64,000 nucleotides of DNA. Source: Vagococcus teuberi (GTDB taxonomy: Bacteria > Bacillota > Bacilli > Lactobacillales > Vagococcaceae). A program made the position numbers and the translations under genes. The notes beneath the pieces are model-generated. The model was not told the origin of the DNA. It saw only the letters and a program-made list of their open reading frames with translations, and did no database searches. The DNA is taken from positions 1,848,501 through 1,912,500 of the forward strand of contig NZ_CP017267.1 in NCBI RefSeq assembly GCF_001870205.1. Direction: 5' to 3'. Of the stretch, positions 2,905-36,384 are shown in pieces. Each line of letters opens with the position of its first letter. The first letter of the stretch is position 1.

Positions 2905-3030
2905 TAGATGGTGGAATTTTTTATACAAAAAAACTCCATGCCACCGTTGACATAGAGGGACTATTGATTGTATTAATCATTGTCCTCGGTAGGAAATTAA
3001 GGTTCTAGAACCACCTACTGTCTTCGGCAT
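2905..3030 (-). promoter_or_regulatory. Ribosomal L10 leader (autoregulatory mRNA element)
   Basis: The untranslated region upstream of rplJ reads on the minus strand as TGCCGAAGACAGTAGGTGG, then CCTACCGAGG, then a CCTCTATG segment and an ACGGTGGCATGG segment. This order is the hallmark of the Firmicutes L10 leader, in which GTAGGTGG pairs with CCTACCGAGG next to the kink-turn bound by L10. Location directly before rplJ supports the call. Exact ends are approximate. Confidence 0.85.
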
Positions 3031-3040
3031 AATATTTTAA

Positions 3041-3073
3041 CCTAGATAACTATAACATCTACAGTTATCTAGG
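3041..3073 (-). other. Strong hairpin between rplA and the L10 leader
   Basis: Eleven-base perfect stem CCTAGATAACT/AGTTATCTAGG with an 11-base loop, 17 bp past the rplA stop. The minus strand has only a short TTAAAATATT after it, not a clean T-run. It may be a weak terminator or an RNA-processing or stability hairpin separating rplKA from rplJL. Confidence 0.6.
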
Positions 3074-27284: not shown

Positions 27285-27533
27285 ATGGCTGGTATGTGTT
27301 CTTCATTAGAGCAAACAGTTGATACCATAAAAAACAGTTCTCTAGTTTCTATCACTGGATACATGGATCATACTTCTTTCTTCGAACTCAGACTAGCTGT
27401 TTCATTGGATAAACAAATTTACTATGTGACAGAACATCTAAACAATACATTCAACTTACCTTTTCCATATTCTATAGAACAAATAATCCCTATCTCATAC
27501 GATGATTTCATCAGTATAGTTGATCATTTATGA
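27285..27533 (+). CDS. Short hypothetical ORF
   Basis: An 82-codon frame with believable composition (ITGYMDHTSFFELRLAVS) but no ribosome-binding site before the ATG and no recognised family. It may be the end of a decayed gene; the 180 bp before it (27104-27284) show no other gene. It ends just before the first small-RNA unit on the opposite strand. Confidence 0.35.
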   Translation: MAGMCSSLEQTVDTIKNSSLVSITGYMDHTSFFELRLAVSLDKQIYYVTEHLNNTFNLPFPYSIEQIIPISYDDFISIVDHL

Positions 27534-27537
27534 TAAT

Positions 27538-27634
27538 AAAAAAAGTCACTAGTTCTCACTAGTGACAAAAAGGAGTTGTTTATTTACTTTGGAGGAGTAA
27601 ATAAAATGAAAAAGTTTGTTAGGGTTGTTTTGTT
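27538..27634 (-). ncRNA. Candidate sibling small RNA, copy A
   Basis: First of three homologous units. On the minus strand: promoter TTTTCA-16 bp-TATAGT (27641-27668), a 5' A/C-rich part, hairpin TTTATTTACT-CCTCCAA-AGTAAATAAA (27579-27605) with CCTCC in the loop, a linker with CTCCTTTTT, then terminator stem GTCACTAG/CTAGTGAC (27545-27566) and seven Ts. The two pyrimidine motifs are complementary to Shine-Dalgarno sequences, the layout of LhrC- and csRNA-type regulators. Start point is predicted; expression untested. Confidence 0.6.
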
Positions 27635-27700
27635 GGTATAACTATATAATAACCTCTATTTATGAAAAAACGATGTCCTTTTTTATTCTTTTTGTGACTT

Positions 27701-27720
27701 TTTACTTAAGAAAGAGTAAA
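27701..27720. promoter_or_regulatory. Palindrome upstream of small RNA copy A
   Basis: Inverted repeat TTTACTT-N6-GAGTAAA, one mismatch, 32 bp upstream of the -35. Equivalent palindromes lie at the same distance before copies B and C, suggesting a dimeric regulator site. Confidence 0.45.
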
Positions 27721-27887
27721 AATAATTTGGAATTATCTCTCTTCACTCATCTCATTTAATCATTTACTAAATGCCTTAATTTATGATTTTTTAACAAGTT
27801 ATCAAAAATAATGATTGGCCTGTTTTATTCCCTCATCATAAAAGTCATACTCATTTCATTTTTGAAAAAAGCTCAATAACATAAGAA

Positions 27888-28037
27888 AAGCGGACAAGTC
27901 CGCCTTGACCTATGAAAAAATAAGAAATTTAACCCTGAATGAGCAGCGAAGCGCGCAATGGGGCAAATTTATCTTTTTTTCACTAGGTCAGGACTTGGGA
28001 GCTAGGCATTGATGGCTGAACTTATAATCCCCTAGTC
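27888..28037. repeat. Large palindromic element between small RNA units A and B
   Basis: Three stacked structures. GCGGAC-AA-GTCCGC (27890-27903) is followed on the minus strand by TTTTCTT, a terminator form. An 85-bp imperfect palindrome (27906-27990) is bounded by TGACCTA/TAGGTCA, with AAATTT and A/T-run arms and a GC-rich centre containing GCAGCGAAGCGCGC. A further hairpin (27992-28037) is bounded by GACT/AGTC. It is much more GC-rich than its surroundings. It may be a dispersed intergenic repeat or a structured minus-strand RNA. Confidence 0.55.
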
Positions 28038-28039
28038 TA

Positions 28040-28136
28040 AAAAAAAGCCACTAGCTTTCACTAGTGGCAAAAAGGAGTTGTTTATTTACTTTGGAGGAGT
28101 AAATAAAATGAAAAAGTTTGTTAGGGTTGTTTTATT
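28040..28136 (-). ncRNA. Candidate sibling small RNA, copy B
   Basis: Same architecture as copy A. Promoter TTTTCA-16 bp-TATATT (28143-28170); hairpin with CCTCC loop (28081-28107) identical to copy A; linker CTCCTTTTT; terminator stem GCCACTAG/CTAGTGGC (28047-28068) followed by eight Ts on the minus strand. The second base pair of the terminator is C-G here but U-A in copy A, a compensatory change that supports a real RNA structure. Confidence 0.6.
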
Positions 28137-28202
28137 AGTATGAATATATAATAACCTCTATTTATGAAAAAACGATGTCCTATTTTATTCTTTTTGTGAT
28201 AT

Positions 28203-28222
28203 TTTACTTAAGAAAAAGTAAA
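28203..28222. promoter_or_regulatory. Palindrome upstream of small RNA copy B
   Basis: Perfect inverted repeat TTTACTT-N6-AAGTAAA, 32 bp upstream of the -35 of copy B. Confidence 0.45.
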
Positions 28223-28318
28223 GATATTTTTTACCTGTTTCTATTAAGCTTTTTCAACTTGATAAGAGTATACTTAACATACAAAAATGAATTAACTAAC
28301 TTGAAAGAGCGTGAAAGT

Positions 28319-28773
28319 ATGTCATTTATTTTTTCTGATTTTCTGTCCTGTTACTTATTAGTATAGGTCTCTTACATATTTATTGGGCTTTTGGTGAGAT
28401 TATTTTTGAAGAGTATGTTCTTCCAGAATATAAATATAATCTCAAACCACAATTTTTTAATCAAACAACTGGACCATTTACGTGTTCTCTAGTTTCTTTA
28501 GCCTTTTTCATATTAGCTTTTTTATAAATTACTTATTCTTATCATATTGGTAATCCTAAAATTGTCTCTATTTTACTAACAATAGCTTGTTTTGTTTTTA
28601 TAGGTAGAATTATTGGCGAGTTTAACTGTTTTGGTATATTTAAAAGAGAAAAAGATACGACCTTTTCAAAAATGGATAATATGATTTATATCCCAATATG
28701 TGTGTATCTAAACATTTCATTGGGTTGTTCAATTGGCTACTTTAAAATAAAAAAAGCCACTAGATTTCTCTAG
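28319..28773 (+). pseudogene. Decayed DUF3995-family membrane protein gene
   Basis: The frame starts MSFIFSDF at 28319 behind GAAAGAG, then needs a frameshift near 28340 to read LLISIGLLHIYWAFGE, the DUF3995 hallmark. It continues to a premature TAA at 28525-28527, after which the same frame shows GRIIGEFNCFGIFKRE and FSKMDNMIYIPICVYL, also typical. About 150 codons in all, close to family length. Its 3' end runs into the terminator hairpin of small RNA copy C on the other strand. Function of the family is unknown. Confidence 0.75.
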
Positions 28774-28845
28774 TGACAAAAAGGAGTTGTTTATTTACTT
28801 TGGAGGAGTAAATAAAATGAAAAAGTTTGTTAGGGTTGTTTCGTT
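28750..28845 (-). ncRNA. Candidate sibling small RNA, copy C
   Basis: Third unit. Promoter TTGTCA-16 bp-TATAAA (28852-28879) is the best of the three. The CCTCC hairpin (28790-28816) is identical to the others; linker CTCCTTTTT; terminator stem 28756-28777, with a G-U pair at the position that is U-A or C-G in the other copies, then a T-tract. The transcribed part is conserved while the sequence before the -35 has diverged, as expected if the RNA is what is under selection. Confidence 0.6.
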
Positions 28846-28912
28846 GGTATGTTTATATAATAGTCTCAACCCATGACAAAACCATGCTTTTTTTTATTAA
28901 TTTATCTAAACT

Positions 28913-28932
28913 TTTAGTTAAGAAAAACTAAA
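28913..28932. promoter_or_regulatory. Palindrome upstream of small RNA copy C
   Basis: Inverted repeat TTTAGTT-N6-AACTAAA, 33 bp upstream of the -35. Compared with copies A and B, both half-sites changed together (ACTT/AAGT to AGTT/AACT), so symmetry is retained. It overlaps the MFS gene terminator. Confidence 0.45.
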
Positions 28933-36184: not shown

Positions 36185-36192
36185 ATAACTAA

Positions 36193-36384
36193 GATATCTG
36201 TGATGTACGCAGTATCCCCATTAGTGTTGACCGAACAAATCGTTTTACTTTGGGAATCAACGAGTATTTATTAAAAACAGGCCTTTTCATTTGGTAGTTT
36301 GAGGTATTTACAGCGATTCCCACCTGCATTTTTTAGCGGGTTCAACCATCAGGGATACAAAACGGCATCGACGGATATTTTTTT
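36193..36384 (+). ncRNA. ssrS: 6S RNA (Lacto-usp type)
   Basis: About 190 nt lying between rarA and usp. The ends pair as a long interrupted helix: ATATC/GGATAT, GATG/CATC and AGTATCCC/GGGATAC, enclosing a large central open region. TTTTTTT follows the 3' arm. 6S RNA imitates an open promoter and binds RNA polymerase holoenzyme in stationary phase; the same position before usp genes defines the Lacto-usp motif in Lactobacillales. Identified by position and pairing, not by alignment. Confidence 0.75.

Follow-up and report, generated by a model that had tools for sequence, protein, structure and literature searches.

Three similar stretches on the minus strand of the Vagococcus teuberi DNA analysed here (64,000 nucleotides of NZ_CP017267.1, hereafter the window) raise the question of whether they are sibling small RNA (sRNA) genes and, if so, how they relate to known multicopy sRNAs such as LhrC of Listeria and the csRNAs of streptococci. 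These direct repeats, located at 27538-27720, 28040-28222 and 28749-28932, each encode a predicted RNA of ~100 nt. Copies 2 and 3 are 90% and 74% identical to copy 1 over 206 nt, or 93% and 84% identical in BLAST alignments of 183 nt. The position of the U-run and of the -10 sequence points to minus-strand transcription, and from the sequence we infer that the units are transcribed as sRNA genes. Their predicted parts and the two features that lie between them are as follows.

27538-27638, minus strand: sRNA copy 1, predicted transcript of ~101 nt with the 5' end UACCAACAAAACAACCCUAACAAAC, its start set by homology to the 5' end of Rfam Ref84, UACCAAC (covariance model R1, 111.8 bits; fold z -5.4)
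27579-27605, minus strand: copy 1 anti-Shine-Dalgarno (anti-SD) hairpin, 10 bp, loop CCUCCAA at 27589-27595 (fold; covariation in the family)
27567-27578, minus strand: copy 1 single-stranded linker with a second anti-SD motif, CUCC, at 27572-27575 (fold; CTCCTT nearly invariant in alignments)
27538-27566, minus strand: copy 1 intrinsic terminator (fold; paired changes)
27646-27677, minus strand: copy 1 predicted promoter, with GACATC at 27672-27677, TTCATA at 27661-27666 (11 bp apart) and the -10 sequence TATTAT at 27646-27651
27703-27716, minus strand: copy 1 conserved CTTTCTTAAG element, a putative further regulator half-site region, about -67 to -78
28040-28140, minus strand: sRNA copy 2 (R1, 111.4 bits; fold z -4.9)
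28081-28107, minus strand: copy 2 anti-SD hairpin (fold)
28040-28068, minus strand: copy 2 intrinsic terminator (fold)
28148-28179, minus strand: copy 2 promoter half-sites and -10 (promoter alignment)
28750-28849, minus strand: sRNA copy 3, the most diverged (R1, 111.0 bits; fold z -5.2)
28790-28816, minus strand: copy 3 anti-SD hairpin (fold)
28750-28777, minus strand: copy 3 intrinsic terminator (fold)
28857-28888, minus strand: copy 3 promoter, GTCATG half-site and -10 TATTAT (promoter alignment)
27881-28036, no strand assigned: long imperfect palindromic insertion between copies 1 and 2, outside the sRNA unit (DNA fold z -4.0)
28330-28740, plus strand: DUF3995 pseudogene with an in-frame stop, between copies 2 and 3, outside the unit (Pfam PF13160, E 1.8e-14)

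Each predicted RNA contains the same parts in the same order: an unstructured A/C-rich 5' tail, a hairpin, a single-stranded CUCC linker and an intrinsic terminator. The unpaired tail is UACCAACAAAACAACCCUAACAAACUUUUUCAU, and an unpaired CAU lies immediately 5' of the hairpin, which in all three copies consists of 10 bp and a 7-nt loop, CCUCCAA. The linker of 12 nt, CAACUCCUUUUU, includes CUCC, and the terminator has a 9-bp stem with a 4-nt loop, followed by U6-7. The minus-strand folds have energies between -19.0 and -21.5 kcal/mol and z-scores between -4.9 and -5.4; none of 200 shuffles was equally stable, and the MFE and centroid structures agree on this fold for every copy. The preliminary description of this DNA had drawn three minus-strand units with a 10-bp CCTCC hairpin, a second CTCC and an intrinsic terminator, and the folds of all three match it.

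That description had also read compensatory changes in the terminators as selection on RNA structure, and a wider comparison bears this out: among 24 Vagococcaceae copies, 8 of the 8 modelled terminator pairs have changed on both sides. The CCUCC hairpin is almost invariant within Vagococcus in the same set of copies and covaries across the order. Among 52 distinct hairpins of the family, pair 7 occurs as A-T (25), T-A (16), C-G (6) or G-C (2), and pairs 4-10 are formed in 85% of cases, compared to 70%, with a maximum of 75.5%, when the arms are permuted; these hairpin counts are inflated by kinship of the sequences and are supportive, carrying no formal probability. The 5' tail, AACAACCCUAACAAA, is nearly invariant in Vagococcaceae.

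Using one unit as a BLAST query, matches were obtained in 66 of 100 related genomes. A covariance model built on the 24 Vagococcaceae copies identified 2-13 members per genome in each of 14 Vagococcus genomes and five in the genome of the window itself, namely the three window copies and two further loci (G000:C1:2033010-2033110 and 2047485-2047584). The "three siblings" first described are thus three in the window but five in the genome, and belong to a family found in several Lactobacillales families. Among the 120 matches listed for the exact 19-nt hairpin core, a few of which are chance occurrences in unrelated bacteria (L185, L191, L197), are loci from Vagococcus, Trichococcus, Carnobacterium, Isobaculum, Desemzia and Enterococcus, as well as from Lacticaseibacillus, Secundilactobacillus, Loigolactobacillus, Levilactobacillus, Latilactobacillus and Agrilactobacillus. 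Window-type genes are present in E. faecalis (L254, with TCACA-N5-TTCACA ahead of the -10, and L256). Judged by such matches, the family appears to span several families of Lactobacillales and to be mostly uncatalogued. Three records of small Vagococcus fluvialis plasmids also carry family RNA genes, and the one in L255 (NZ_CP122525.1) is of the window type at 111.8 bits. Some Lactobacillaceae members (L098, L104, L231) are longer RNAs with extra hairpins and the loops CCACCC, ACCCCAT or TCCCCC, a pattern that looks like a multiplication of C-rich loops.

The nearest catalogued family, and the single relative in Rfam, is Ref84 (RF02846), an sRNA of E. faecalis. An Rfam scan at the gathering threshold gave no match at the window sRNA locus; the three copies score 40.5, 37.4 and 37.4 bits against Ref84 (E 0.0025-0.009; gathering score 52 bits), and in each case the match is full-length (1-87). 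Ref84 and the window RNAs have in common, in the same order, the 5' sequence UACCAACAACAACC, a CTCC hairpin, the linker CTCCTTTTT (CTCCTT) and a terminator. In contrast to the window units with their TTCAYA half-sites, good Ref84 matches (L038-L053) mostly have a -35-like TGGACA or TAGACA upstream and no TTCAYA repeats, and they usually occur once per genome beside separate window-type paralogues. For Vagococcus, Lacticaseibacillus and Carnobacterium, a search of open-access papers yielded no description of the family, nor any use of the name Ref84; the family is also unnamed in the passages searched of open-access papers on Enterococcus sRNAs, which leaves room for an earlier description elsewhere. 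The initial impression that the RNAs were undescribed has to be qualified by this sub-threshold relative.

The promoters differ from what had been supposed. The preliminary description gave them a 16-bp spacer, whereas in an alignment of 97 Vagococcaceae-type promoters no -35 sequence is conserved; instead, the -10 sequence TATTAT is preceded by TTCAYA-type half-sites at -15, -26 and -48 from its first base, in an 11-bp register, and a T-rich block resembling TTCTTAA lies near -59. A sharper consensus, TTCACACTTTCTTCACA, emerged from 69 promoters of other Lactobacillales that had been chosen by their TTCAYA half-site. From its sequence, the promoter looks activator-dependent rather than plain sigma-70. 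The pattern TCAYA-N5-TTCAYA-N9-TATWAT has 17 matches in 14 Vagococcus genomes, compared to one for a reversed control, and all 17 are accounted for: 10 lie before family RNAs and seven before one FtsX/ABC-like operon. A second family (Lactobacillaceae, judged by the related RNAs) was covered by 121 genomes, in which TTCACANTTTCTTCACA plus a -10 has 10 matches, nearly all directly 5' of a C-rich hairpin RNA. The strict promoter pattern matches one of the five copies in the genome of the window and none in the window itself, a result of half-site degeneracy (in the window, GACATC is the upstream half-site). The operon that carries the sRNA promoter motif comprises two genes, for an FtsX-like permease and an ABC-ATPase-like protein (weak family matches), and was found with the motif in seven Vagococcus genomes (L209, L211, L215, L218, L220-L222). 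On the strength of the shared motif, the operon likely belongs to the sRNA regulon; no two-component gene adjoins it in the Vagococcus loci examined.

Promoters under activation by OmpR-family response regulators have this layout. CiaR, a regulator of that family, activates csRNA promoters through direct repeats spaced N5 apart beside the -10 (PMC3091779), a LisR-responsive element lies upstream of -53 at lhrC5 (PMC4132741), and in E. faecalis the CroR motif of pbp4(5) occupies -78 to -63 (PMC9426447). The position of TTTCTTAAG in the window units is close to that of the CroR motif of pbp4(5) and comparable to that of the LisR element of lhrC5 (PMC9426447, PMC4132741). Taken together, the promoter layout and the element distances make a regulator of the LisR/CroR type plausible.

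In their overall plan, the window RNAs share much with both of the known systems. Like them, LhrC1-5 (Listeria, RF00616) are multicopy, partly tandem, about 110 nt long and equipped with C-rich loop and linker motifs, and both have an AACAACA-rich 5' tail and promoter half-sites every 11 bp (LhrC promoters were taken from Rfam matches). However, the LhrC loop is UCCC/CCCC rather than CCUCC, LhrC has three C-rich motifs, one of them in the terminator loop, whereas the window RNAs have two and terminator loops that lack CUCCC, and the LhrC half-sites (TCTCA/TCTAA/TCACA) differ from those of the window; with respect to LisRK control, the comparison concerns promoter layout alone. The window covariance model locates LhrC genes at their exact places, but with only 20-27 bits, and in the reverse direction the window RNAs reach 22.8 bits against Rfam LhrC (E 1.2; gathering score 110 bits). 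The csRNAs of Streptococcus are characterized by an N5 direct repeat at the -10, unpaired anti-SD and anti-AUG (CAU) sequences, several paralogues and a terminator (PMC3091779, PMC8186281). The window RNAs follow this plan with their CCUCC loop, CUCC linker, CAU 5' of the stem and rho-independent terminator. The CiaR motif TTTAAG-N5-TTTAAG, with CiaRH reported in streptococci only, is absent from the window promoters, which read GACATC/GTCATG-type and TTCATA. The window model had no match in two Streptococcus-like genomes, and a CiaR-type pattern had one match in ten such genomes, ahead of a csRNA-like sequence. Judged by their features, the window RNAs would fall into the functional class of TCS-type multicopy anti-SD sRNAs, having paralogues, a regulator-type promoter and exposed CU-rich motifs; they resemble the LhrC/csRNA plan closely, yet by sequence they fail membership in either. 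The original proposal, sibling sRNA genes of the LhrC/csRNA plan with exposed anti-SD motifs, has strong support from the structure, from covariation, from promoter conservation and from the breadth of the family.

We consider it likely that the window units are paralogous, redundant genes for OmpR-type-regulated, trans-acting sRNAs that block the start of translation by anti-SD pairing. More generally, the family is probably switched on jointly by a stress-sensing regulator and probably covers the ribosome-binding sites of mRNAs. Envelope or other stress would activate an OmpR-family response regulator, plausibly of the LisR/CroR type, which would bind the tandem TTCAYA half-sites upstream of the -10 and induce all copies simultaneously. 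Each gene would yield an RNA of ~100 nt with its 3' end at the gene's own terminator. Its CCUCC loop and CUCC linker would pair with the SD of a target, and CAU with AUG where possible, and such pairing at the ribosome-binding site would reduce translation of the target mRNAs. Several copies would provide higher dosage and redundancy. Both target pairing and a stress signal are inferred for the window RNAs. LhrC and the csRNAs are described as driven by TCS and as complementary to, or contacting, ribosome-binding sites (PMC4132741, PMC3091779). In duplex-energy calculations on translation-initiation regions versus intragenic DNA of the window, the means were -9.3 versus -5.5 kcal/mol for the loop and -8.8 versus -5.0 kcal/mol for the linker, in a weak test, as its 43 window genes were chosen for having an SD; this preference is partly expected of any CCUCC, and at least one shuffled linker equalled it. 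The 5' tail showed no preference for initiation regions of the window.

This combination of an invariant tail and a tail indifferent to initiation regions is what would be expected if the sRNAs acted mainly by protein sequestration or RNA titration through the A/C-rich tail, with the CCUCC loop secondary, and for the csRNAs it has been suggested that a conserved stretch serves as a site for a protein (PMC3091779). We regard this as unlikely: in Lactobacillaceae members, at loci selected by their CTCCTCC hairpin, other hairpins replace the tail while that hairpin stays and its loop is the more constant part. A much less probable alternative places the function on the plus strand, where a perfect SD-ATG in all three units, GGAGGAGTAAATAAAATG, could serve as RBS and start for the peptide MKKFVRVVLLV, the minus-strand RNA then being an antisense antitoxin; type I modules with convergent transcripts do occur in enterococci (PMC3166299). 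The plus-strand GGAGGAG and ATG are, however, the mere complement of anti-SD and CAU, and the peptide is not conserved, being frameshifted or stopped in relatives, with others reading MKKFC, MKRLFCW, MKSLLGLFCW or MKI because the length of the 5' tail changes. Most copies also lack any ORF in the sense orientation of the RNA, covariation preserves the hairpin rather than codons, the plus-strand fold is less specific (z -2.5), and neither a promoter nor a terminator is conserved on the plus strand, the single U-run being 3' of the hairpin on the minus strand. A plus-strand peptide gene was rejected, as its reading frame is not conserved among the copies.

Least probable of all is that the units are a dispersed, MITE-like mobile repeat whose terminator and promoter-like parts are incidental, even though there are several copies per genome, some on the three V. 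fluvialis plasmid records, and a genuine palindromic repeat lies between copies 1 and 2. Similarity among the units ends at the promoter region and the terminator, terminator sequences vary while their pairing stays, no end repeats were seen in the units, and the promoter half-sites are conserved across families. The preliminary description had allowed for a mobile repeat scattered at random; instead, promoter, loop and terminator are kept in many unrelated contexts with differing flanks, and at this locus the array is syntenic. In related genomes it adjoins trhO on one side and an MFS transporter gene on the other, and in two of these genomes the units follow one another in tandem every 195 bp. 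A mobile origin of the units was therefore rejected, while the palindromic insertion is nevertheless present as a separate, MITE-like element; its sole other copy found is at G000:C1:1144677-1144832 (97% identity), and a search of nine other Vagococcus genomes did not find it. Together with the DUF3995 pseudogene, it opened the array, resulting in irregular spacings of 502 and 709 bp.

Favouring the sRNA reading, we tentatively extend it to an order-wide, largely uncatalogued family of TCS-driven anti-SD RNAs in non-streptococcal Lactobacillales, with a nearly dedicated TTCAYA/11-bp promoter code, a possibility in which we place limited confidence. If true, a single ancient RNA system for envelope stress would have LhrC, the csRNAs and Ref84 as its local branches, and its regulator and binding code would have been exchanged from one lineage to another. 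Little of post-transcriptional control has been mapped in enterococci, vagococci or lactobacilli. The hfq gene is said to be missing from enterococci and lactobacilli (PMC3091779). Multicopy RNAs that share a regulator-type promoter would give lactic acid bacteria of food, gut and clinic a general route from stress to translation, and would allow LhrC of Listeria, the csRNAs of streptococci and Ref84 of E. faecalis to be brought together in one testable comparison. The promoter motif and the covariance model are directly applicable to existing RNA-seq data from E. faecalis and lactobacilli.

Upstream of the array, an 82-aa ORF (27285-27533) without a Pfam or NCBIfam match is 85-90% conserved in two related Vagococcus loci. 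Elsewhere in the window, 6S RNA (36192-36381) and a ribosomal protein L10 leader (2918-3045) both exceed their Rfam gathering scores.
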